Positions 4,846 through 35,039 of a stretch of DNA of 64,000 nt are shown here, in pieces. The stretch is from Bacteroidota bacterium (GTDB lineage: Bacteria > Bacteroidota > Bacteroidia > NS11-12g > UBA955), in the NCBI GenBank assembly GCA_027621365.1, contig JAQCBH010000010.1, forward strand, positions 1-64,000, in the 5' to 3' direction. Made by a program: the position numbers and the translations under genes. Numbering within the stretch: the first letter of the stretch is position 1; every line of letters begins with the position of its first letter. The notes under the pieces were generated by a model. That model was given only the letters and a program-made list of their open reading frames with translations. It searched no databases and was not told the origin of the DNA.

Positions 4846-5840
4846 AAGCCGCCAAATTGTTGCAACATGCGAACATCTCCGCTGAAAAAGTCACGAATGT
4901 CAGAAATGCCGTATTTGAGCATGGTCAAACGATCGATGCCCATGCCAAAGGCGAAGCCGGAAAATTTTTTAGCATCTAGCCCACATGATTCGAGCACATT
5001 GGGGTGAACCATGCCGCAACCCAAGACTTCCAACCACCCCGTTCCTTTGGTCAAACGGCGATTTTCTTCGGTATCAAGTCCAGCCCATATATCCATCTCT
5101 GCACTGGGTTCGGTAAAGGGAAAATAGCTGCTTCGAAAACGTATCTGGGTTCCTTCTCCGAAAAACTGCTGCACGAAATAATACAGGGTTTGTTTGAGGT
5201 CTGTGAAACTTACTCCTTCGTCTACATACAAGCCCTCAATTTGATGAAAGAAACAATTGCTTCGTGAGCTGACGGCTTCGTTGCGGTATACTCGTCCAGG
5301 CATCACCAAACGAAACGGCGGTTGTCCTCGCTCCATTTCCCTCACTTGAACCGAACTGGTATGTGTTCTCAATACATGTTCGGCAATAAAAAAGGTGTCC
5401 TGCATATCACGAGCAGGGTGATCGTCAGCAAAGTTCAAGGCACCAAAGTTGTGGTGGTCGTCTTCGATTTCTGGCCCTTCAGCCAAATCAAAACCAAGTT
5501 TCGAGAATATGCCTACCAACTCATCTTCAACCACCTTTAAAGGATGTAGAGAACCGTAGGGTATTTGTTGCAGCAAAGAAGCATCGTAGTCGACTTCGAG
5601 GTTTGAATCATTTGACTCATGTGCGGCCGACCATTTTTCTTCTGCTTTGCGTTTGAGAAGATTCAACCCCTTTCCTACTGTTCGCTTTTCTTCACCCTCC
5701 AAGGTTTTGAACTCATCAAACAAGACCGACACTTTTCCCTTTTTAGACAAATAGGCCAAACGAAACGATTCGGCCTCTGCCCCATTGTTGATCACAATGG
5801 CATCTATTTCGTGTTCTAGGTCTTGAATGCGCTTGAGCAT
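4842..5840 (-). CDS. pheS: Phenylalanine--tRNA ligase alpha subunit
   Basis: HPL..V..E....F..LGF, DDHPARDMQDTFF, GMGIDRLTMLKYGISDIRDFF; start at MLKRIQDLEHE. Confidence 0.95.
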   Translation of the reverse strand: MLKRIQDLEHEIDAIVINNGAEAESFRLAYLSKKGKVSVLFDEFKTLEGEEKRTVGKGLNLLKRKAEEKWSAAHESNDSNLEVDYDASLLQQIPYGSLHPLKVVEDELVGIFSKLGFDLAEGPEIEDDHHNFGALNFADDHPARDMQDTFFIAEHVLRTHTSSVQVREMERGQPPFRLVMPGRVYRNEAVSSRSNCFFHQIEGLYVDEGVSFTDLKQTLYYFVQQFFGEGTQIRFRSSYFPFTEPSAEMDIWAGLDTEENRRLTKGTGWLEVLGCGMVHPNVLESCGLDAKKFSGFAFGMGIDRLTMLKYGISDIRDFFSGDVRMLQQFGGL

Positions 5841-5844
5841 TGTA

Positions 5845-5852
5845 CAAAAATA
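5845..5852 (-). promoter_or_regulatory. -7 element TATTTTTG, 4 nt before ATG of pheS
   Basis: TAnnTTTG; spacer TACA. Confidence 0.75.
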
Positions 5853-6101
5853 CAGCTTGTTTTCAGAATCACCGGTTTGGTTTTCCCCTCGGTTTTCCCT
5901 CGTCCTGTAATTCAATAATATTCTTCTTTAAAATGAATTGTATTAGGTATTATAGCTGTGTGGAAATGTGAATATGAGTTGGTTTTGATGCTTAAGTCAT
6001 TCATTTTGAATGGTTTTTTGTTTTGCTTTTTTCCCGACACCCTGATGACTGGTGTTTGGGTTATTGGCCCTTCATCAACAAGGTTTCGTTTCTTGATTTT
6101 G

Positions 6102-6117
6102 TTTTTCACGTGGAAAC
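6102..6117. promoter_or_regulatory. Weak parS-like site (TTTTTCACGTGGAAAC)
   Basis: 12/16 match; TTTCACGTG followed by a 1-nt shifted GAAAC half-site; intergenic between pheS and the Ig-like lipoprotein gene. Confidence 0.3.
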
Positions 6118-6121
6118 ACAA

Positions 6122-7093
6122 TCATCGTAAGATCTCCCCAACGAAATCGACAGTGATTTCTTCTTTTTTCACAATGATTTCATTGATGAGTCCGGGTTTG
6201 CAAATGACCTCGTGTATCTCATAGTGGTCTGGCCAGTCGAGCACATGGTTGTTGTTTTCGTCCTTATAAGTGACGAGTATGTATGTACCTTCTTTTAATT
6301 CCAATTGTAGGGAATCGTGAAACTCTCCATTGGGTTGGTTGACCCATGTCTTGGGCTCTTTGAAAAAGTAAGAGCCCTCCCCTTTTAGCATCAATTGGGC
6401 AATCGTCGAATCTGCTGGTTTTGTATGGCTGCTATCGGCTTTTGTGACAAGTGGCGGGTATTCGAAACTTTGGGTTGTGTTTGTTTCGGCTTCCAATATT
6501 CCACGGCCATACACTTCTGTAGAGTCGTATTGTTTATTGGCGTTGGCATCCAAAAAGAATATATACTGTTTGCTTTGATCAGGTGCGGGGTCAGAATACC
6601 GATAGCTTAAGCCTGTTGGGCTGCTTTCGCTCGGCAGGACCCAATGGGTTTCATGATTGGTTTGGAGTGTAAGCACCCACTGTCCTTTTGCGTTGCGCAA
6701 GCTTTTGGCGTCTTTGAAAGAGACTTGAATGTGCAGCTGATGGGAATCAAGCGCTTTGTAGAGGTTGTTTTCATTCAAATCGCTCAATGACTTCCCTAAT
6801 GAAAGTTGTTTCACGCTTAAGGGCACGTCAAAACTCACTTCGTTTCTGTGAACCTTTCCTCGCTGTTCCAAATAGTCATCTGAGGGGTTTAGTAAAACAG
6901 AACCTTTGCTTTGCATATTTTCGTCGAACACAAATGTCCAGCGTTGCAGTTGTGTGTCTTTGCGTTCTATCAGCGTCTTGTCTATTCGAATCAATACAGG
7001 AGATGTTGTGTCTTTGGCTCCCCCGGTTGGGCTTACAGGGTTGGCGCATGACGCTAGGGCGCTTAGGATCAATATGGAGAGGGTAGTTCTCAT
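6122..7093 (-). CDS. Ig-like-domain lipoprotein of the Bacteroidetes 'CANPVSPTGGxKD' type
   Basis: Lipobox ALASCANP followed by GGAKDTTSPVLIRID; overlaps mnmG by 4 bp. Confidence 0.7.
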   Translation of the reverse strand: MRTTLSILILSALASCANPVSPTGGAKDTTSPVLIRIDKTLIERKDTQLQRWTFVFDENMQSKGSVLLNPSDDYLEQRGKVHRNEVSFDVPLSVKQLSLGKSLSDLNENNLYKALDSHQLHIQVSFKDAKSLRNAKGQWVLTLQTNHETHWVLPSESSPTGLSYRYSDPAPDQSKQYIFFLDANANKQYDSTEVYGRGILEAETNTTQSFEYPPLVTKADSSHTKPADSTIAQLMLKGEGSYFFKEPKTWVNQPNGEFHDSLQLELKEGTYILVTYKDENNNHVLDWPDHYEIHEVICKPGLINEIIVKKEEITVDFVGEILR

Positions 7094-8958
7094 CGTCCAA
7101 AATGAACCAAAAGTACAGAAACATCTGAGGGGCTGACTCCCGAAATGCGTTGGGCTTGGCCAATGGTTGCTGGGCGCAGTTTTGATAGTTTTTCTCGGCT
7201 TTCTATACTCATGGCTCTGAGTTGCTTGTAATCGAAGTCTAGGGGTATACTCAGCGATTCGAGGCGCTGCAGCTTGAGGGCATTTTCTTTTTCCCGTTCT
7301 ATATAGGTGTGGTATTTGGCCAGAATTTCTGCTCGCTCTATGGCTTCTGGGTCTTGGCTGATGGAGTTAAGCTGCTTTGCTATTTCTGGGTCTTGACTCA
7401 AATCCTGAAGGCTGATTTCGGGCCGGAGTAAGAGTTTGTGCAAACGAGTCTTTTCGCTAATGGGGGCAGACTGTGTGTTCTGGGCGTTGAAATTTTCAGG
7501 TGAAGCGTTATGGGTCTGTAAGTATTCGCTTATAGCCCGAGTTTCCTGTTGCCTCTTTTCAAACTCTTGCAGCCGCTCTTGCGAGGCCAAACCAATTTCA
7601 GCGCCAATGGGAGTGAGTCGCTCATCGGCGTTGTCTTGGCGCAAGCTGATGCGGTATTCGGCTCTAGAGGTAAACATTCGGTACGGCTCATCTGTGCCCT
7701 TGTTGACCAAGTCATCGACCAAAACCCCAATGTAGGCCTGATCCCTTCTTAAAACGATGGCGTTTTGTTCTTGCACTTTCCGTGCCGCGTTAATGCCAGC
7801 CACCAATCCTTGAGCAGCGGCTTCTTCGTAACCCGTGGTACCGTTGATTTGCCCAGCAAAAAACAAGCCATCTATGAGTTTGGTTTCAAGCGATAGTTTG
7901 AGTTGAGTGGGTGGAAAGTAGTCGTATTCTATGGCATAACCGGGTCTAAATATTTTAGCCTTCTCGAATCCGGGTATTTGCCTCAAGGCTTTTTCTTGAA
8001 TGTGATCTGGTAAAGAGGTGCTGAACCCGTTGACATAAACCTCTATTGTGTTCCAACCTTCTGGTTCTACAAAGATCTGATGGCGGTCGCGCTCGGCAAA
8101 GCGGTTGATTTTATCTTCAATCGAAGGGCAATAACGGGGCCCTAAACTCTGAATGGTGCCGTTGTACATGGGCGAGTCTTCAAAGCCCTCGCGAAGGGTT
8201 TCGTGAACCTGACCGTTGGTATAGGTGATGTAGCAAGAACGTTGACGGGAGAGAGCTCGGCTGCTTTTCAAATAGGAGAACTTGGCCGGGTTTTCGTCTC
8301 CTGGTTGTTCCTCCATTTTAGAGTAGTCAAGGCTACGGCCGTCAACGCGTGGGGGCGTGCCTGTTTTCATGCGGCCCGACTCAAAACCCAAGTCTTTGAG
8401 TTGTTTGGTGATGCCAAACGAGGCCGATTCGCCCATTCGGCCGCCACCAAACTGTTTTCTTCCTATATGAATGAGGCCCGAAAGAAAGGTACCCGTAGTC
8501 AACACTACGGTTTTGCCCTTGAATTCTACCCCCATACCGGTTGTTACCCCTGTGATTTTGTTGTTTTCAAGCGTTAAACCCGTAACCGAGTCTTGAAAGA
8601 AGTCGACATTGGGGTTCTGTTCAAGGGTCAAACGCCACTCTTCAGAAAAGCGCCAACGATCGCTTTGAGCACGGGGGCTCCACATGGCTACTCCTTTGCT
8701 GCGGTTGAGCATGCGAAACTGTATAGCGGTGCGATCGGTGATGAGACCACTCATGCCCCCTAAGGCGTCTATCTCTCTGACTATCTGTCCTTTAGCTACC
8801 CCACCCATCGCAGGATTGCAGCTCATTTTGGCAATGGTTTCCATGTTCATGGTCACCAACAAGACCCGCGAACCCATGGTAGCGGCTGCGTGAGCGGCCT
8901 CGCAACCCGCATGGCCCGCACCCACCACAATCACGTCGTATGTTTCGCTTTTGAGCAT
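7090..8958 (-). CDS. mnmG: tRNA uridine-5-carboxymethylaminomethyl modification enzyme MnmG (GidA)
   Basis: YDVIVVGAGHAGCEAA, SCNPAMGGVAKG, GQINGTTGYEEAAAQG. ATG at 8958 preferred over the upstream TTG. Confidence 0.97.
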   Translation of the reverse strand: MLKSETYDVIVVGAGHAGCEAAHAAATMGSRVLLVTMNMETIAKMSCNPAMGGVAKGQIVREIDALGGMSGLITDRTAIQFRMLNRSKGVAMWSPRAQSDRWRFSEEWRLTLEQNPNVDFFQDSVTGLTLENNKITGVTTGMGVEFKGKTVVLTTGTFLSGLIHIGRKQFGGGRMGESASFGITKQLKDLGFESGRMKTGTPPRVDGRSLDYSKMEEQPGDENPAKFSYLKSSRALSRQRSCYITYTNGQVHETLREGFEDSPMYNGTIQSLGPRYCPSIEDKINRFAERDRHQIFVEPEGWNTIEVYVNGFSTSLPDHIQEKALRQIPGFEKAKIFRPGYAIEYDYFPPTQLKLSLETKLIDGLFFAGQINGTTGYEEAAAQGLVAGINAARKVQEQNAIVLRRDQAYIGVLVDDLVNKGTDEPYRMFTSRAEYRISLRQDNADERLTPIGAEIGLASQERLQEFEKRQQETRAISEYLQTHNASPENFNAQNTQSAPISEKTRLHKLLLRPEISLQDLSQDPEIAKQLNSISQDPEAIERAEILAKYHTYIEREKENALKLQRLESLSIPLDFDYKQLRAMSIESREKLSKLRPATIGQAQRISGVSPSDVSVLLVHFGR

Positions 8959-25355: not shown

Positions 25356-26975
25356 ATGAAATACGCTGCTTTTGTGCTTCTCGTTGGGTTGGCATTCGTC
25401 GCCTGCGAAAAAGAAGAGGGACTACTCTCGAAGAAAGAAAAAAAAGGAACAGGCATCCCAGTGGTGGAATGGGTTGACACCCTTAACACAGATAGCTTGT
25501 ACTACAAAAAAGCGTTTGCTCAAGCGGTTGTTGTTGCCGATAGTGGCCTCCCTGTGAGCGAACGGGGGTTCGTGATTTCTACATCTGAAGCACCTAGCAT
25601 TGACGACCCTAAAACCCAATGCGGCCAAGGCCTAGGCGTGTTTCAAGCCTTCGTTAAAAACTTGGACTATGGGCAGACCTACCATCTTCGCGCTTATGCG
25701 ATCAACGAGCTTGGGGTCGGATACAGCGAAGAACTTTCATTTGAAAGTTACAAACTAGACTTGCCTACGGTCACAGCCAAGAGCACAGTGGCCAATATTA
25801 AAATAGACGCGACAGCAGAAGTGTCTGGCGAGGTTGTTTCGTCAAACGGAGGAACAGTCACCGAGCGTGGGGTGGTTTGGTCAAGTAGCCCTAACCCAAC
25901 CATTAACGATAACAAAAAAAGCAATGGTTCTGGCTTGGGGAAATTTAGCGTTGTCCTGACTGGGCTTCAGTACAGCACAAAGTATTACTACAGGGCCTAC
26001 GCCATCAATGAAGCAGGAACCGCCTACAGTGACGAGTATTCGTTTGACAGTTATGCGCTACAGTTGGCATCTGTATCTGTTGGAAGCGCCCCTACGGTCA
26101 TTTCCCAAGGTGGAGCACAAATTACCGGAAATGTAACCTCTGCGAATGGGGGTACAGTGAGCGATCGAGGCATCGTGTGGTCGACTAGCCCCAACCCAAC
26201 AACAAACAACAAAAAAGCGAGTAGCGGAAGCGGAGTTGGCAGCTTCAACGCCACATTGTCTGGATTAAGCATCAACACAAAGTACTATTATCGGGCCTAT
26301 GCCACCAACGAGGCGGGTACCGCATATAGTTCGGAATATTCGTTCAACAGCAAAACAGTAAACCTGCCCTCTGTTTCTGTAAATAGCAGCCCCAATAGCG
26401 TGGGTTCGGGCACCGCACAAATTTCGGGCAATGCAACCTCTGCGAATGGGGGTACAATTAGCGAGCGCGGCATTGTGTGGTCGACGAGCCCCAACCCAAC
26501 AACGAGTAACAACAAAGTGAGCAGCGGTAGCGGAACAGGCACCTTTGCAGGAAACCTGTCGGGATTGAGCAACTTTACAAAATACTATTATCGGGCCTAT
26601 GCCATCAATGAGGCAGGCACCGCCTACAGTTCTGAGTACTCGTTCAATAGTTACGAACCCCCATGCACGATTAATCAAGGCACAACGGGGTCGACCTACT
26701 CCATACAGATCACGTCAAAAAGCTCTTTTCAACCAGGGGAGTCAATCAAGGTAACCATGTACAGTTCCATATATTCGTTCGGTCAGGCGTCTTCTGTGAA
26801 ACTATACAACGGCGATAACCTCGTTTATACATTTGGAAGTTGGTTGGTTTTTGACAGCAACAACAGCCGACAGTTTTCTCTGCCTAGTTCACTGGCTACA
26901 TCTAACTGCTATAACATACGGGTCTATAAAGGAAGTGATGTTTATGTATCCCCAAAATTCACCGTTAAACCCTAA
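25356..26975 (+). CDS. Lipoprotein with about four tandem fibronectin-like repeats and a unique C-terminal domain
   Basis: Lipobox LAFVACEK; repeats GGTVTERGVVWSSSPNPTINDNK...TKYYYRAYAINEAGTAYS. Confidence 0.8.
   Translation: MKYAAFVLLVGLAFVACEKEEGLLSKKEKKGTGIPVVEWVDTLNTDSLYYKKAFAQAVVVADSGLPVSERGFVISTSEAPSIDDPKTQCGQGLGVFQAFVKNLDYGQTYHLRAYAINELGVGYSEELSFESYKLDLPTVTAKSTVANIKIDATAEVSGEVVSSNGGTVTERGVVWSSSPNPTINDNKKSNGSGLGKFSVVLTGLQYSTKYYYRAYAINEAGTAYSDEYSFDSYALQLASVSVGSAPTVISQGGAQITGNVTSANGGTVSDRGIVWSTSPNPTTNNKKASSGSGVGSFNATLSGLSINTKYYYRAYATNEAGTAYSSEYSFNSKTVNLPSVSVNSSPNSVGSGTAQISGNATSANGGTISERGIVWSTSPNPTTSNNKVSSGSGTGTFAGNLSGLSNFTKYYYRAYAINEAGTAYSSEYSFNSYEPPCTINQGTTGSTYSIQITSKSSFQPGESIKVTMYSSIYSFGQASSVKLYNGDNLVYTFGSWLVFDSNNSRQFSLPSSLATSNCYNIRVYKGSDVYVSPKFTVKP
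25495..26660 (+). repeat. Tandem repeats of about 300 bp encoding FN3-like modules (three strong copies and one degenerate N-terminal copy)
   Basis: Near-identical blocks around 25810, 26110 and 26410 (tctgcgaatgggggtac, gtgtggtcgac-agccccaacccaac). Confidence 0.85.
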
Positions 26976-26986
26976 ACACCTAAAAA

Positions 26987-29317
26987 ATGAAACAACTGAA
27001 CTCAATAAAACTTATTGCTCTTTTGGTACTAGGGTTGTCAAGTTTGGCATTGTCGGCCCAAGAAGCTGAAGAACCAAGCGGCCAAATCCTGAAAAACGAG
27101 ATTCAGGATGAGCTCAACAGCAAAGGCCTCAATTGGGAACAATTAGAAACGAGATACACCCAAATTGAAGCTACATCAGAAGCGGTTTATAGCCAAGAAT
27201 TGACCTTAGAGCAAGAAAGATTAAAGGGCCTCTTGGCTTCAAAAGAGACGTTGAAAGCCGAGGTCAATGATGCAAGAAACCAATGTGGCGCAATGTGGAA
27301 TAAAAAAGAACAGCAGCGCAGAGCCAGGGGGTTGGTTGTTGGTTTGGCTACAACGAACTTAGGATTCGTTGAACGAGGGCCTGTGCTGTCAGCAATGATC
27401 AATGGGGGATTCCCGACCTGTCGGTTTGTGGCATTTGACTTTGTTAAAGGAGTTTTTGTTGGGGTTGATTCTGATGGGAAAACACTGACTATCTCTGAAG
27501 GAATGTCGAACCACGCCCAATTGGTTTTGGCTATGGAAAAAACTCCTTGGGGCAAGAGTATTGAAGCCGCAACCGAGGACGAAATTGGAAAAACGCTGGA
27601 TCGTATTTTTTATAACCCCAATGACAATGTTTTGAATGCAAAGTTTGAGGAAAAACAATATCGATTGAGCGTTGTGGACCAAGAAATAGAAGAGACAAGA
27701 TTGGCCATCCAAGCGCTGCAAACGGCCCAATCCCAACTCAACGGCAAGCTTTGGAACAACCGGGTTAAAGACTCGTCACTTATTTTGTGGAGAAGAAACT
27801 ACCTTGAAGAGACTCTCGCCGAAATTGCTCAGATTGACAGCGCAAATGATGCGGAACAAAAAAGATACAAAAAGGAAGAAGCCGCATACAATGTGGAACT
27901 CAAAAAGTACAACTCAAAAATGGCCTCTTTTGGTTCTCTCAAAGTAAGCAAAGCAAGAGCTAGTTCCTTAGCCGGCTTTGCCTCTCGGTACATATACGGG
28001 TCTTCCTCTATTTTTGATCAGTATACATATTTTACTGAACTGACCGAAAGCGAAGAATACGGTTCTTGTTTGACGGCGTTTGGTTTTGATTGGGACCAGG
28101 GGTATGGTTTGTGGGGTAGTTACGTGGTAATTTTGTACAAAGGCAAACCCGTATACGCCCAAGAGTGGAGCTCCTACAACAGAATTTCGGGATCTGATCT
28201 TTCGCTCGCCATTGCCGCTTATGAAGCAACCACCGAGTTGAGTTGCCCAGTGCCACCCGATGAGCCATACGATACAGAACTTTTGGGGTATCCTCGCTTG
28301 GTTTCGACACCTGACTTTGTCTTAAATGTGAACAAAGAGGAGCCTGTTCAAAAGCCCATTTCACGTGTAACCGAAATACAAAACCTGCTGTATGTGTCTG
28401 ATGAAGACTTTGAAACTCAACATTCCCTTCTCTCAGAAAGCGCTTACAACCCCATTGCTCGCCATCAATTATTGGGAATAGAGCCATCAACCACAGTTTT
28501 TCAATCATCAAACATCAACAAAGCCTTTACAGATATGGCTCGGCTTTCTGCACTTGCAAGAATTGATTCGTTGTTGGGGTATGGGGACCAAGGTCAACTC
28601 AAGACCACCATTATGTTTTTTGGTGTAGGTAAGGCAAATGATCTTTCTTTTGAGACGCATATTTCTTCGTCTTCCATGAATATTGTAGATACAACCTCAA
28701 TGATCAGCAAAGACAATCGCGTGTTTGTTCGGAAGGATTTTTCGGTAACTCCATTTGAGCAAACACTAATCCACAAATGGACAACCACCAATCTTCATGT
28801 CTACTCTGATCATTCGGGCCTATATTCAGATTGTCAAGATGCGAGAGCCATGGCTCTTGTTCGGCTTGGTATTGGGTCTTCTGATATGCCCTATGGAGAG
28901 TTTGATTGGTCTATTAAGCAAACAATCGTAGGTGGCGACACCAGCATTGAAGTGTTATTGGTGAATCACGAGCCAACCGTAAGAGGGAGAGGCAAGGCTT
29001 TTGTTCCAGGGTTTTCAACTCATACTTCGTCTTTTAAATCTAAAGGCGGGGCGATTCGTTCAATCAACGCCTTGACGTGGATAGGTGCCGCTGCATGTGC
29101 TGTACTTGCAGAACAATTTTACCAAAACCACTTGTCTGCAACCACTTTATCGGATATCGATGCGAATTACAACCAATACAACCAATTTAGAACCTTGGGT
29201 CTTGGGCTTGGCGGGTTGGGCGCGCTGTTGACGACCTCAGACCAGCTAGTGGGTTCAAAAAAGAGAAAGAAAAATGCCCAATCGAAAAACCAACCGGGTT
29301 TGTATTTGAGTTTGTGA
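26987..29317 (+). CDS. Large secreted orphan protein (coiled-coil N-terminal half, hydrophobic C-terminal segments)
   Basis: 776 aa, signal peptide ending LALSAQ; coiled-coil stretches; hydrophobic RSINALTWIGAAACAVLAEQ and TLGLGLGGLGALL. No family recognised. Confidence 0.8.
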   Translation: MKQLNSIKLIALLVLGLSSLALSAQEAEEPSGQILKNEIQDELNSKGLNWEQLETRYTQIEATSEAVYSQELTLEQERLKGLLASKETLKAEVNDARNQCGAMWNKKEQQRRARGLVVGLATTNLGFVERGPVLSAMINGGFPTCRFVAFDFVKGVFVGVDSDGKTLTISEGMSNHAQLVLAMEKTPWGKSIEAATEDEIGKTLDRIFYNPNDNVLNAKFEEKQYRLSVVDQEIEETRLAIQALQTAQSQLNGKLWNNRVKDSSLILWRRNYLEETLAEIAQIDSANDAEQKRYKKEEAAYNVELKKYNSKMASFGSLKVSKARASSLAGFASRYIYGSSSIFDQYTYFTELTESEEYGSCLTAFGFDWDQGYGLWGSYVVILYKGKPVYAQEWSSYNRISGSDLSLAIAAYEATTELSCPVPPDEPYDTELLGYPRLVSTPDFVLNVNKEEPVQKPISRVTEIQNLLYVSDEDFETQHSLLSESAYNPIARHQLLGIEPSTTVFQSSNINKAFTDMARLSALARIDSLLGYGDQGQLKTTIMFFGVGKANDLSFETHISSSSMNIVDTTSMISKDNRVFVRKDFSVTPFEQTLIHKWTTTNLHVYSDHSGLYSDCQDARAMALVRLGIGSSDMPYGEFDWSIKQTIVGGDTSIEVLLVNHEPTVRGRGKAFVPGFSTHTSSFKSKGGAIRSINALTWIGAAACAVLAEQFYQNHLSATTLSDIDANYNQYNQFRTLGLGLGGLGALLTTSDQLVGSKKRKKNAQSKNQPGLYLSL

Positions 29318-29366
29318 TATGGGTTCAAAAACGGATACCCAGGGGTTGGTTATCTATTAATAGCCG

Positions 29367-29374
29367 TAGATTTG
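29367..29374 (+). promoter_or_regulatory. -7 element TAGATTTG, 4 nt before GTG (7 nt before ATG) of aroQ
   Basis: TAnnTTTG; spacer GCTC. Confidence 0.7.
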
Positions 29375-29378
29375 GCTC

Positions 29379-29807
29379 GTGATGAACACCATGAAGCGTT
29401 TGGCAATCGTTAACGGACCCAATTTGAACTTGCTTGGAAGCAGAGAACCTCATCTTTATGGAGGTCAATCTGTAGAGGAGCTGTTGTCAAGTTTAACTTT
29501 GCGATTCCCAGAGGTAGACTTTGTGCATTACCAAAGCAATATTGAAGGGGAACTGATTGATTTCATGCAACAATTTGCGGGTGATGGAATTGTTTTAAAT
29601 GCAGGGGGCTATTCCCACACTTCAGTGGCAATAGCTGATTGCGTTAAGGCCATTGCTGTTCCGGTCATTTCTGTTCATATCACCAACATTTACGCCCGTG
29701 AAGAAGCACGACACCACGACCTAATCTCTGCCTACAGCATGGGCCAAATTACAGGTTTGGGTACAGAGGGGTATGGGTTGGCCGTTCAGCGCTTTTTGAG
29801 CCTCTAA
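29379..29807 (+). CDS. aroQ: 3-dehydroquinate dehydratase, type II
   Basis: IVNGPNLNLLGSREPHLYG, QSNIEGELIDFMQ, NAGGYSHTSVAIAD, EVHIT-like SVHITNIYAREEARHH. Confidence 0.95.
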   Translation: MMNTMKRLAIVNGPNLNLLGSREPHLYGGQSVEELLSSLTLRFPEVDFVHYQSNIEGELIDFMQQFAGDGIVLNAGGYSHTSVAIADCVKAIAVPVISVHITNIYAREEARHHDLISAYSMGQITGLGTEGYGLAVQRFLSL

Positions 29808-29823
29808 ACGACCAACTCGTAAC

Positions 29824-30168
29824 TCAAGACTCGCGTTTGTAGATAGACTGGTATACCACTGCGAAAATCAGTGTAATCAAACTATTGGCAATTACAAACA
29901 GAGGGGTTGTAAATCCAATTGTGGCGAACAGTAGGTTTACTGCAATGACCAGCCCGACAAAAAGCATGGCGACCAAGCGCAAGTTTACGCTGTGTCTTCC
30001 ATTTTCGTGAGATACAGCTAGAGCTAAAACCCAAGATATGGCAGAGGGTATTCCTGAGCCAATGATCAGCGTTTGAAGGGAATCACCCGAATAAAGAACA
30101 CTGTTTAAATAAGTGAACAAGGCTGAAAAGGCTAGTGCCAATAAAAGAGATACAGGATTGATTTTCAT
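29824..30168 (-). CDS. Small multi-TM membrane protein
   Basis: About four hydrophobic segments (ISWVLALAVS, LVGLVIAVNLLFATIGF, NSLITLIFAVVY); last gene of the SPFH/PH cluster. Confidence 0.65.
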   Translation of the reverse strand: MKINPVSLLLALAFSALFTYLNSVLYSGDSLQTLIIGSGIPSAISWVLALAVSHENGRHSVNLRLVAMLFVGLVIAVNLLFATIGFTTPLFVIANSLITLIFAVVYQSIYKRES

Positions 30169-30175
30169 GGTTGAG

Positions 30176-30553
30176 TTATTTGCAAATGTATTTGGCAAGA
30201 GTTTTCTGCAATCCAACGACATCGATCCCTCTTTTTAATTCTTGTTTGAACGGAGTGGCCACACCAGACACCCAAATTTCTAGCTCACAATCACCGTCAA
30301 AAGTTCCGGCTGTCTCAACTAAAAAATGGGTGATGGCTCTGTATGGCAAAGAATGATACTCTTTTTTTGACCCCGTCATACCTTGAATGTCTTGCATGAT
30401 CAAGCGACGATTGGTGAACACCCATTTGTCTCTCCAGAGCTTGAATGCAGCTTCTATTTGTTCCCCTTCGCAAAGAATGGGTCCAAATTCTTTTTCCAGT
30501 TCTTCGGGCTTAAGCTCAGAGGCGTTGCCCATCAAGTTTGATAATAGTCCCAT
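30176..30553 (-). CDS. Bacterial PH-domain protein
   Basis: LCEGEQIEAAFKLWRDKWVFTNRRLIMQDIQGMTGSKKEYHSLPYRAITHFLVET. Confidence 0.85.
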   Translation of the reverse strand: MGLLSNLMGNASELKPEELEKEFGPILCEGEQIEAAFKLWRDKWVFTNRRLIMQDIQGMTGSKKEYHSLPYRAITHFLVETAGTFDGDCELEIWVSGVATPFKQELKRGIDVVGLQKTLAKYICK

Positions 30554-30556
30554 GAT

Positions 30557-31900
30557 TTAACCTACTGGTGGTGGAGGAGGGGTTGGTGGTGTGGCACCGA
30601 ACATTGAGCTAACTTCTGGCATTTCTGCTGCTTTGACCCAATTGGCCATGCCAGCCTTCCAAACAAAAGATTCGGGAGTCAATTGCCCATTTTGGATCAT
30701 TTGCTGCAGTTGTTGGGCTCCAAAGGGCCCGGCGTTTTGACCATTGACAGTCACATGAACTTGTAGAGTAGGTGGTGGAGGTGGTTGGTTCATACCCGCA
30801 TTCACTTGTTGGCCCATTTGGTTCATCATTTGACCCATTTGACCACCCATGGCACCGCCCATGGCCATGCCGGTCATCATGCCGGCGACATTCATGCCGC
30901 CACCGCCGCCGCCGCCCATGTCACCCATGGCACCAAGGCTATCTGCCGCTGTTTTCAAAACTTCTGTTTGTTGGTTCAACGCATGAGCGCCCATGAAGTT
31001 GGTTTCGGTTTGCAACTTTTGAGCACGTTGCCCTTCTTCTCTTTGAATTCTCAGCGATTCTTCCATGTTTTCGGCTTGAATTCGTTGAGTATCTTGTAGG
31101 TTTTTGATGTTTACATCTGTTTGGGCCACAGTTGATTTCGTGGCCTGTTCTTGCGTAACCTTTAGAAGGGAACGATAACCATCGCTTTCTTTATCGGCTT
31201 CTATGCTGGAAAGGTCCAAGCCCTTCATGTTTACCCCAAAGTCGTCAAACAAACGAGGTTTCAAATATTCAGCAACGGCATCGTTGATGTCCATGATTTT
31301 CCGTTCCATTTGCATCACCGGTATGCCTTTGTCTTGGGGAATGTTTGTGATAACGCCCTTTACATACTTGATGACCGCATCTTTGATCTGTTTCTTAAAA
31401 TCTTCCAACTCAAAATTGATCAAGCGATTCAGCTTGATAAACCCTTGATAGTCGGTCACATTGAAGGTGATGGTACCTCTTGCAGACATGGGTACAGAAA
31501 AATCCATAAAGCGGGGATCAAACACATCAAAATAGGGTACACCAAAACGAATTTGATTGTTCCCGGCTAAGTTGATAAAATAAATTTCTGCCTGGAAAGG
31601 TGACGCACCACCAAAAGCGGCTCCAACAATGCCCGTCAGAACAGGAAAGTTGGCCGTTTTGATGGTTTCATCATAGGGCCCCATGATGTAATCATGCATG
31701 GACCCGTCTTTCTGTTTGTAAACAAAAACAGCCATTTCACCATCTTTGACTCGCAAACTTGAGCCGTAGCGAATGGCGTTTTCTTTGTTGGTTGAATTGG
31801 CTTCTCCTGACGGACGCCACTTCCATACCAAATACTCTTGTTCATCACAGCGAATGACATCCATCAATCCGCCTTCTGATTTTTTTCCAAAAAGTCCCAT
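30557..31900 (-). CDS. SPFH-domain ('virion core protein'-like) with Gly/Met/Pro linker and C-terminal GYF_2 domain
   Basis: MGLFGKKSEGGLMDVIRCDEQEYLVWKW, coiled coil, GGGGGGG linker, PFGAQQLQQMIQNGQLTPESFVWKAGMANWVKAAE. Confidence 0.85.
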   Translation of the reverse strand: MGLFGKKSEGGLMDVIRCDEQEYLVWKWRPSGEANSTNKENAIRYGSSLRVKDGEMAVFVYKQKDGSMHDYIMGPYDETIKTANFPVLTGIVGAAFGGASPFQAEIYFINLAGNNQIRFGVPYFDVFDPRFMDFSVPMSARGTITFNVTDYQGFIKLNRLINFELEDFKKQIKDAVIKYVKGVITNIPQDKGIPVMQMERKIMDINDAVAEYLKPRLFDDFGVNMKGLDLSSIEADKESDGYRSLLKVTQEQATKSTVAQTDVNIKNLQDTQRIQAENMEESLRIQREEGQRAQKLQTETNFMGAHALNQQTEVLKTAADSLGAMGDMGGGGGGGMNVAGMMTGMAMGGAMGGQMGQMMNQMGQQVNAGMNQPPPPPTLQVHVTVNGQNAGPFGAQQLQQMIQNGQLTPESFVWKAGMANWVKAAEMPEVSSMFGATPPTPPPPPVG

Positions 31901-31906
31901 TGTATG

Positions 31907-32623
31907 TTATTTAATTCCTAGTTCGTTGGCGTAAGCCATGATTTCTTCTAAAGTGCGCTTGTCTTCCTTCATGGAAAACTTGGCTTTCATGATGATTTGT
32001 TCGCACTTTGATTTCCACGTAGGGGCAAGATCATTGTGTGATTTGTTCTCAGGCTGGTTTTTGGTCATAAAATTCCCTTTTTGTTTCGCGTTGGGAATAG
32101 CCAAAGACAAAAACTCCAAAATGTCATCTTTGGTGTTTGGGATGGGAAATCCAGAAATAATCGACTTCTTTTTCTCTGTGATCTTATCCCCACCCAAAGC
32201 TTGGTTCATCATTGAGCCATAGACGCTGAGAATGTTGGTGCTAGCTTCTTTGCGTTCAGCCTCGCATGCGTTGAGCATTTCGAACAACTTTCCAATAGAA
32301 ACATTGGCTCCAATGTTGCTAAACTCATGGCCACAATCGGGGCATTTGGTTTGAAAAGATTGTGCAATAGCACCACAACCCGGACACTTTTTTACATCGC
32401 CAAACTTGTCTGATTTTGGCGCAGATGTTGCCGCCGCGGCAGCATCGGCTTTTTTCATGTCTGCCTGTTTTTCGAAAAGCTTAGCATCCAAAACCATTTC
32501 GAATTCATCCAAATCAATTCCTGCATCTTCTGCTTTTTTATACAGGATCTGTTTTTCCTTCTCTGTCAACTCACCATCAGCGAGTGCGAGTTCAATGAGT
32601 TTTTCTATTCTCTCGTCGTACAT
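31907..32623 (-). CDS. TerB-like N-terminal helical domain plus zinc ribbon
   Basis: IEKLIELALADGELTEKEKQILYKKAEDAGIDLDEFE; CPGCGAIAQSFQTKCPDCGHEF. Confidence 0.75.
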   Translation of the reverse strand: MYDERIEKLIELALADGELTEKEKQILYKKAEDAGIDLDEFEMVLDAKLFEKQADMKKADAAAAATSAPKSDKFGDVKKCPGCGAIAQSFQTKCPDCGHEFSNIGANVSIGKLFEMLNACEAERKEASTNILSVYGSMMNQALGGDKITEKKKSIISGFPIPNTKDDILEFLSLAIPNAKQKGNFMTKNQPENKSHNDLAPTWKSKCEQIIMKAKFSMKEDKRTLEEIMAYANELGIK

Positions 32624-32714
32624 AATTTGTGATTAGTTCCAATATACAGTTTTTGTTTTAAATCATGCGTTTGTTTGGGTCAACGCTTATTGAATGACTT
32701 GTGTTTTTTGTGGT

Positions 32715-35039
32715 TTAAAGAGTCTTCAACACCGCCATCAATGCTTCTGGGTCTTTTGATGCCCCTTTGATGGCTTTTTTGTTTTCTTTGGTTAGTGGTT
32801 TGGAAAGGACCGATTGTAGGAGTACAAAAGGCTCCATTGCGGCGGTTAGATTGGTTGTGGCTGTTGCAATTTCTGCTTGGTATGCCGAGAGTGTTGTAGC
32901 GCTAGAGGGAGTAGAGTCAAGTTCTTTGAATTTAGCGGCCAACGTTTTGTCGAACAAAGAGAAGCATGATGCAAATTCCTTCACTCCCGCAGCTTCGGCC
33001 AGAGCTAAGGTTGATGCCTTAACTGAGTCGAGGCGGACTCGCTCTTCTTTGATTTTTTTAATGGCTTTGTTTGTGTTGTTAACCGAATTGTTAGCATCTA
33101 TCCATTTTTCAGTTAATATATTTATAGCGTTTTCAAATGAAACTAACGACGTATTTAATGTGTCTTCTGTTTCAGTGATTGACATAACAGAAGATGTAAG
33201 GTTTAATGATAACGTGTGTCCTGACTTATAGAGCGCATTTTTCTCTGCAGATTGTGCTTCTTTGGATTTTAAATTGGTTGTTATCAACTCAAGCTCCAAG
33301 TTTTGTAGTTCTTTTGTTTTTGCTAGCAAAAGTTCTAATTTTTCTAAAGATTTCAGGTAGGTCTCTGTTGTTGTTTTTAGGCTATCTGTTAAGTAAAAGG
33401 GTATATCGCACCTTGAACAACCGTACACCGATTTGGCCACCTCTCCGAAAACATTATATGCTGAAAGCACTTGTGATTTAGTTACAGAACTTTTTTTAGT
33501 TGATTTTATGAGCAAGATTAAAGAGTCATAGACCATTTCTTCTTTTTGCAATGTTGTTAGACACAGTTTTGAGACTAAGTTGTTTTGATAAGCTGGGTTT
33601 TTGCTTGAGGTAGGAGTAAATGGATAATAAGTAAAATATTCGTAACCATATCTCAAGTAAAACCTGTTAGACTTTTTTGCCAACTCATCTTTTACAGATT
33701 GGGATGTATAGATGGAGTTAGCTAGAAGTGCATACGCAGGAGTGGCCGCATTTAAACGGGTTGTATAAAAATCTCTATTGGGCAACTTGAATTCTTCTGT
33801 AGTTACGTAGTACACCTCTTTATTACCTGTTTTAAATATTTTGTCTGCGGGGTAAATTTTGTCATTTGATAAAGAATTACCGCCGTTAAGAGAATTGTAT
33901 ACGTTTGCTGCGTGTTTAAGGCTGGTATCCAACTGGGCAGAAATTGTTATGTAGTCGGATTTTGCTGATTCAAAAAGAGTCTCTATTGAATCTTTTAATT
34001 CGTTGATTCTGTTGCGCTCACTGGGCTTAACCTTGTCCATATCAATTTCATTCAATTCTTTTAAGACCTTGAAAATATCCTCACTTTCATGTACGGTGTT
34101 TAAATATGGAGCATAGCTGTAGGATGACCGATAATCACTAATAAAATTTACACAACCACCCCAATCAGAGTTACTCTGATTGCTTAGGTCGCCTTCTAGT
34201 TTATTTGTTAGGTTTCCATCTTCATAGAAATTAAGAATTTTCTGAATAATTCTGTAGGTTGTATATCCGGAGTTTTCATCACAAAGTTTGTTGACTTCGA
34301 AGTCGTTTTGTAATTGGACTTCTGCTGATTGAGATATAAATGGTTCGAAATCATTATATGTGTTGATGTAGTTTTTGCTTTTATCTAATAATTGACCATC
34401 TTCATCTCTAAAACTTCGGGATATTAAATAGGTGTTTTTGTAAACATGAGTTTCGTAAATGTCTTCGCTAGGTTTTCTTATTGTCCACGTTCCAGTACAA
34501 TAAGAATCATCTGTGTACTGCCCTTTAATTTCAAGGTCGTCTTCTTTGACATAGGCAGAGCCAACCAATTTGCCATTGTTGAAATTAACCTTTACGGTTA
34601 AATTGACGTTTTTGCTGAACAATGGCTCATTGCCACCCCATCTGTTTTTTGCGGTAGTTTTAAAGTTTTTAATGATCGAAAATGCCCCGTGATACAATCC
34701 GTCTTTGTAGTTAACTGTTATGACCTCTGATCCGTTCACCGTTACATACAGGGGCTCGCTTCCAATATATCGAGTCGTTTTGGCGTTTGACGCTGTTGTT
34801 TTGAATACCCAATTGCCATTGCGTTTTCCGTGGGTAAAACTCCCAGTTATGGTGAAGCCACTACCGGTTTTATAATTAAAGGAGCCGTGTTTAACGTAAT
34901 TTTGAGTTTCTGGATCAATGTAATACGAATAAGTAGCTGTTCCGTTAGCATAATCACCTTTAAACTGTTTCGTAGTTTGTGCGTTTACAGCCGCCCATGT
35001 GGCCAGGGCGCAAACACCCAAAGCAAGTAATTTCTTCAT
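32715..35039 (-). CDS. Large secreted orphan protein with N-terminal MORN-like motifs and C-terminal coiled coil
   Basis: Signal peptide; HGKRNGNWVFK, KDGLYHGAFS, NNGKLVGSAYV; long helical C-terminal half. Confidence 0.7.
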   Translation of the reverse strand: MKKLLALGVCALATWAAVNAQTTKQFKGDYANGTATYSYYIDPETQNYVKHGSFNYKTGSGFTITGSFTHGKRNGNWVFKTTASNAKTTRYIGSEPLYVTVNGSEVITVNYKDGLYHGAFSIIKNFKTTAKNRWGGNEPLFSKNVNLTVKVNFNNGKLVGSAYVKEDDLEIKGQYTDDSYCTGTWTIRKPSEDIYETHVYKNTYLISRSFRDEDGQLLDKSKNYINTYNDFEPFISQSAEVQLQNDFEVNKLCDENSGYTTYRIIQKILNFYEDGNLTNKLEGDLSNQSNSDWGGCVNFISDYRSSYSYAPYLNTVHESEDIFKVLKELNEIDMDKVKPSERNRINELKDSIETLFESAKSDYITISAQLDTSLKHAANVYNSLNGGNSLSNDKIYPADKIFKTGNKEVYYVTTEEFKLPNRDFYTTRLNAATPAYALLANSIYTSQSVKDELAKKSNRFYLRYGYEYFTYYPFTPTSSKNPAYQNNLVSKLCLTTLQKEEMVYDSLILLIKSTKKSSVTKSQVLSAYNVFGEVAKSVYGCSRCDIPFYLTDSLKTTTETYLKSLEKLELLLAKTKELQNLELELITTNLKSKEAQSAEKNALYKSGHTLSLNLTSSVMSITETEDTLNTSLVSFENAINILTEKWIDANNSVNNTNKAIKKIKEERVRLDSVKASTLALAEAAGVKEFASCFSLFDKTLAAKFKELDSTPSSATTLSAYQAEIATATTNLTAAMEPFVLLQSVLSKPLTKENKKAIKGASKDPEALMAVLKTL

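Follow-up and report, generated by a model that had tools for sequence, protein, structure and literature searches.

Genes of the cassette

The window (the whole stretch of 64,000 nucleotides of Bacteroidota DNA that was analysed) contains a cluster of minus-strand genes that we refer to as the SPFH-GYF2 cassette:

29824-30168, minus strand: small TM gene, 114 amino acids, four predicted TM segments; conserved part of the cassette
30176-30553, minus strand: bPH_1 (bacterial PH domain) gene, 125 amino acids; accessory in a variable slot
30557-31900, minus strand: SPFH-GYF2 gene, 447 amino acids; conserved scaffold
31907-32623, minus strand: TerB-like/zinc-ribbon gene (TerB-Zn), 238 amino acids; putative adaptor
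32715-35039, minus strand: MORN-like gene, 774 amino acids, with signal peptide, MORN-like beta-sheet and helical region; probable fifth cassette gene

As originally predicted, the first four genes listed form a tight run on one strand, with gaps of 6, 3 and 7 nt from TerB-Zn to the TM gene. The start of the TM gene at 30168 is favoured over a longer alternative at 30222, because most relatives are 113-115 amino acids long and share the same start point. A promoter scan at the cassette performed no better than scans of shuffled sequences.

Domain calls made earlier for three of these proteins are borne out. The 447-amino acid protein exceeds Pfam cut-offs for SPFH/Band_7_1 (PF13421; 1.1e-23, 84.5 bits against a cut-off of 24) and for GYF_2 (6e-18), and is arranged as an SPFH (Band_7_1) domain, a Gly/Met linker, a Pro-rich segment, GYF_2 and a poly-Pro tail, with no TM segment. 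The 125-amino acid protein matches bPH_1 over its cut-off (PF08000; 2.8e-48, 163 bits), and the 114-amino acid protein has four hydrophobic segments and matches no Pfam family over cut-off. The description of the 238-amino acid protein as TerB-like with a zinc ribbon is sustained in part: Pfam scores lie under the cut-offs for TerB (17.9 versus 24.4 bits) and Zn_ribbon_3 (22 versus 27 bits), but the four ribbon cysteines (C80, C83, C94 and C97) are invariant in 48 aligned homologues. Its layout comprises a TerB-like N-terminal helical tag (residues ~1-50), a CxxC...CxxC ribbon (78-101) and a helical C-terminal domain. The AlphaFold model has a pLDDT of 83, and a fold search against the PDB gave no match; the best hits, 14-3-3 helical lookalikes at E 0.6, were set aside. 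With regard to Ter (tellurite/TerB) systems, besides the sub-threshold TerB score, no TerC, TerD or TerY partner occurs in the adjoining genes that were scanned or in the neighbour tallies, which list 25 families. None of the four proteins scores over cut-off in NCBIfam or has a confident match in PADLOC 2.0 (best E 0.013).

A conserved core with replaceable slots

A search for SPFH-GYF2 in a collection of 84,980 genomes returned 131 matching stretches, and 80 loci were kept. Gene maps of these loci were built with home-made HMMs, and presence was counted only where a locus had enough sequence. The conserved order is one to four TerB-Zn genes, whose copies within a locus are divergent, followed by SPFH-GYF2, a small GYF_2 gene (~117 amino acids) and the 114-amino acid TM protein. 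The clustering exceeds chance: among 78 related loci, TerB-Zn is in the same-strand cluster at 65 of the 73 that are testable, with a median gap of 18.5 nt to the SPFH gene; the TM gene is in the cluster at 60 of 72 testable loci, and the small GYF_2 gene is present at 51 of the 72 with enough sequence. In contrast, only 3 of 78 loci have a gene closely related to the bPH_1 gene of the window, always right after SPFH, and one of these is the congener's own copy (L046). The neighbourhood that had been proposed is therefore conserved in its TerB-Zn and TM genes but not in its PH gene, and the four-part combination does not hold as a unit: the PH gene belongs to the replaceable accessories, outside the conserved core, a small GYF_2 gene is normally included, and a secreted hypervariable protein had been overlooked.

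Elsewhere, the PH slot or an upstream slot is filled by a 320-amino acid family, 101-amino acid TM proteins, a MORN-like protein, YidD with a 230-amino acid family, a CASTOR/POLLUX channel (RCK), GIY-YIG proteins or restriction enzymes. Because other loci fill these slots differently, the window is read as one version of a modular cassette. Cultured strains that have a complete cassette include Gelidibacter gilvus IC158 and Flavobacterium supellecticarium. Two accessory families appear PH-like by eye, but their PH nature is unproven because PDB profile searches were empty and Pfam did not place the members tested. YidD and the conserved ~230-amino acid family lie directly upstream of the cassette at L036, L056, L058, L062, L071, L076 and L077, which represent several phyla, and our literature search found no description of a YidD-SPFH connection. 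At L010, a 576-amino acid protein (5486-7216) combines DnaJ-like CxxCxGxG zinc motifs with a TerB domain over cut-off (42.7 bits), and its gene sits 1 nt upstream of TerB-Zn.

The window's cassette has no small GYF_2 gene. This genome's copy is on another contig, where it adjoins a second TerB-Zn gene and a gene for a 388-amino acid protein (L090 9440-12451, contig C25, G000). The second TerB-Zn protein is 67% identical to the window's over the first 127 residues. This TerB-Zn variant has TM segments, and there is no SPFH gene at the locus.

A rapidly diverging secreted protein

The MORN-like gene lies directly upstream of TerB-Zn in the window, across a 91-nt gap. Its 774-amino acid product starts with what resembles a signal peptide, followed by a MORN-like beta-sheet (about residues 21-185) and an extended helical region; the AlphaFold model is reliable only over the N-terminal sheet (pLDDT about 75-90 over most of 21-175; mean 50). 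Four other lineages have homologues within or next to the cassette: in L081 and L102 the gene precedes TerB-Zn by 16 and 24 nt, in L055 it lies two genes upstream, and in L035 it stands between the SPFH and small GYF genes. This recurrence suggests that 32715-35039 probably belongs to the cluster as a fifth gene, although the 91-nt gap could house a separate promoter.

Compared between congeners, two genes of the system have changed much more rapidly than the others. The core proteins share 97-99% identity with those of congener G002, and identity in the flanking DNA is 89% and 93%, whereas the MORN-like protein is 15-35% identical in its centre, between a conserved start (90% over the first 40 residues) and end (80-93% over the last ~50). 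The other is the gene for the 388-amino acid protein of L090, which is 62% identical to the congener's copy, versus 94-98% for its neighbours. The G002 copy of the MORN-like gene is interrupted by an in-frame stop, which may reflect decay or an assembly error.

Distribution and probable mobility

The SPFH-GYF2 protein is found (E below 1e-60) in 2 of 393 genomes of the phylum and 3 of 65 of the order, this genome counted; Band_7_1 as a whole, in contrast, exceeds its cut-off in 61 of 148 genomes. SPFH-GYF2 proteins from four phyla (Bacteroidota, Pseudomonadota, Spirochaetota and Bacillota) share 51-84% identity, with a mean column identity of 65% in the four-phylum alignment, and Bacteroidota and Pseudomonadota are intermixed in the tree. 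GC3 is 0.36-0.46 in the cassette versus 0.55-0.70 in a sample of seven more distant genes, and cassette flanks include integrases, invertases, transposases and an AbiD-like gene. Such sequence features point to horizontal transfer of the cassette, with massive loss as a less economical alternative. A second congener, G001, has no cassette and almost no alignable DNA at the site, so no clean empty site can be read.

The low-GC3 stretch in the window (25356-35039) takes in aroQ (29379-29807) and two genes beyond it, besides the cassette; aroQ was not found in G001. A 539-amino acid protein with repeated FN3-like domains is encoded at 25356-26975, where the congener has two tandem versions (639 and 580 amino acids), a difference that suggests repeat-driven variation.

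Viral contigs contained no relative, and plasmids contained only distant SPFH domains (<30% identity). One record labelled "Bacteriophage sp." (MT835670.1, L117) was rejected as a phage-borne copy, as its sensor-kinase-like and ABC-transporter-like genes make it look like a misassigned fragment of a bacterial chromosome.

Comparison with known systems

The PspA-YdjGHI system of B. subtilis (ydjFGHI) resembles the cassette in that one operon contains a Band_7_1-type SPFH protein without TM segments, a zinc ribbon and an integral membrane protein. YdjI lacks its own membrane anchor, depends on the integral proteins YdjG/H for recruitment, and influences membrane fluidity (PMC8581546). The parallel is a natural one because the cassette also pairs an SPFH protein that has no TM segment with a conserved TM partner. 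However, the cassette has neither PspA nor a TPM (YdjH) protein, and no TPM domain was matched by Pfam in the four proteins or the neighbouring proteins scanned. Its SPFH protein bears GYF_2 where the Bacillus protein has a C-terminal zinc ribbon, a TerB-like adaptor replaces the ZnR-NTF2-TM protein YdjG, and the cassette is patchily distributed and apparently mobile. The original observation that PspA is missing extends beyond the window: PF04012 has no match in 20 genomes (this one and 19 relatives), and controls were positive in B. subtilis and E. coli. As the PspA partner, the defining feature of that family, is missing, the cassette may work like PspA-YdjGHI, but we do not call it a member of that system.

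It is possible, if somewhat doubtful, that the cassette is a non-defence envelope-stress module of this type, in which a small membrane protein brings in the SPFH protein to repair or fluidize stressed membrane, and PH, YidD and channel proteins tune the response. The precedent of YdjI, the assignment of the window's SPFH protein to PF13421, a family that also matches in B. subtilis, and the membrane-related character of YidD, RCK channels and PH domains are all consistent with this explanation, but the lack of PspA in 20 of 20 genomes, the extreme patchiness and spread across phyla, the hypervariable secreted protein and the linkage to GIY-YIG genes described below are not readily accommodated by it. 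The earlier guess of a membrane-microdomain or envelope module was reasonable with regard to protein family and the B. subtilis control, but its phage-shock analogy did not predict mobility or occasional ties to defence genes.

Flotillin/stomatin-NfeD operons (SPFH1, 2 and 5) also combine an SPFH scaffold with a membrane protein. In the cassette, however, the SPFH protein has no N-terminal TM segment, the 114-amino acid protein has no Pfam match over cut-off, and no NfeD-like protein was matched by Pfam among neighbouring proteins. SPFH8/9 lack TM segments, and the small groups SPFH9-12 are scattered over unrelated phyla (PMC2636767); unlike the cassette, these small, soluble, laterally moved subfamilies were not described with a GYF_2 fusion or a cassette operon, and GYF is not mentioned in that study. 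A catalogue of Band-7 operons (PMC11237479) mentions neither GYF nor TerB. The nearest GYF relatives in NCBIfam and among solved structures are the GYF domains of the Myxococcus gliding proteins GltJ/AglX, but the cassette GYF is fused to SPFH and the rest of GltJ is unmatched. The cassette is real and is conserved as a modular unit, and it is undescribed in Pfam, NCBIfam and PADLOC and in the literature searched, which includes no account of SPFH with GYF, TerB or YidD.

Links to defence genes and phage

The accessory proteins in line with the cassette number 106; three of them match PD-T4-3, a GIY-YIG phage defence, and one matches a methyl-directed restriction enzyme; one further accessory protein carries an Mrr-type nuclease domain. 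PD-T4-3 is rare (six genes in 5 of 297 genomes), and a GIY-YIG gene of its type adjoins the cassette at 3 loci versus about 0.001 expected, a rough estimate that assumes ~3,000 genes per genome and uses 117 flanking proteins. In L015 and L067 the gene precedes TerB-Zn by 49 and 59 nt, and in L016 it shares a 4-nt overlap with the TM gene. At L016 (3056-5915), cassette and GIY-YIG gene are followed by a phage tail tape-measure gene (E 1e-60), and this cassette is apparently prophage-borne.

The PD-T4-3-like gene lies outside the cassette core and is absent from the window's cassette; this genome's homologue instead adjoins a MORN-like paralogue. The locus in question (L133 5198-8310, contig C21, G000) encodes a 784-amino acid MORN-like secreted protein and a convergent PD-T4-3-type GIY-YIG gene, whose ends overlap by 4 nt. 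The overall density of PADLOC matches is no higher close to the cassette than at a distance, where many of the matches are generic kinases, and at most loci the cassette has no recognized defence gene next to it. It may simply be that GIY-YIG and restriction genes occupy the same genomic islands as the cassette.

We consider it unlikely that the cassette is a narrow anti-phage system of the abortive type, which itself kills or arrests infected cells: the PD-T4-3-type neighbour, the prophage-borne copy and the channel and nuclease accessories would fit, but the core has no recognizable toxic effector, and nuclease-fold accessories are found only in a minority of loci. Less probable still is genomic-island cargo for niche-specific physiology (e.g., transport or surface structure) with no function in stress or conflict, for although accessory genes vary widely and many flanking genes are metabolic, the same accessory types are recruited repeatedly and the core is strongly conserved.

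A proposed platform model

The cassette likely acts in envelope stress or conflict. The reading that we prefer, to which we give an even chance, is a horizontally mobile, modular SPFH platform at the inner membrane, whose probable job would be to sense or counter envelope attack by phage, toxin or membrane damage. Gene content, conservation, patchy occurrence, exchange of accessory genes, hypervariability and linkage to a defence gene are observed; we infer its membrane location, oligomerization, every contact and biological role as follows. SPFH-GYF2 would oligomerize at the cytoplasmic side of the inner membrane, and as it has no TM segment, we propose that the small four-TM protein tethers it there. 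Eukaryotic GYF domains bind poly-proline motifs, and the same is plausible here: of 79 SPFH proteins, 72 have PPP within the last 25 amino acids and 77 have a proline run immediately ahead of GYF, and 45 of 59 small GYF proteins carry a terminal PPP. The GYF domain would most likely bind its own C-terminal tail and that of the small GYF_2 protein, which could create a multivalent hub. TerB-Zn adaptors might then dock on this hub and connect interchangeable partners, such as PH-domain proteins, the CASTOR/POLLUX-type RCK channel, YidD, small TM proteins and nucleases. We propose that the secreted MORN-like protein would encounter a target beyond the inner membrane and that it changes quickly because this target changes.

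A more specific form of this model is tentative. The cassette could be an undescribed mobile conflict system, in which the SPFH-GYF platform and TerB-Zn adaptors link exchangeable effectors to a diversifying periplasmic sensor that tracks phages or toxins.

SPFH proteins are widespread and come in many kinds. As a compact unit of four to six genes, the cassette can be directly cloned and tested. If the model is true, bacterial membrane platforms would be tied to biological conflict through a mobile, modular SPFH cassette that combines a domain-swapped GYF hub with a secreted partner undergoing diversification.
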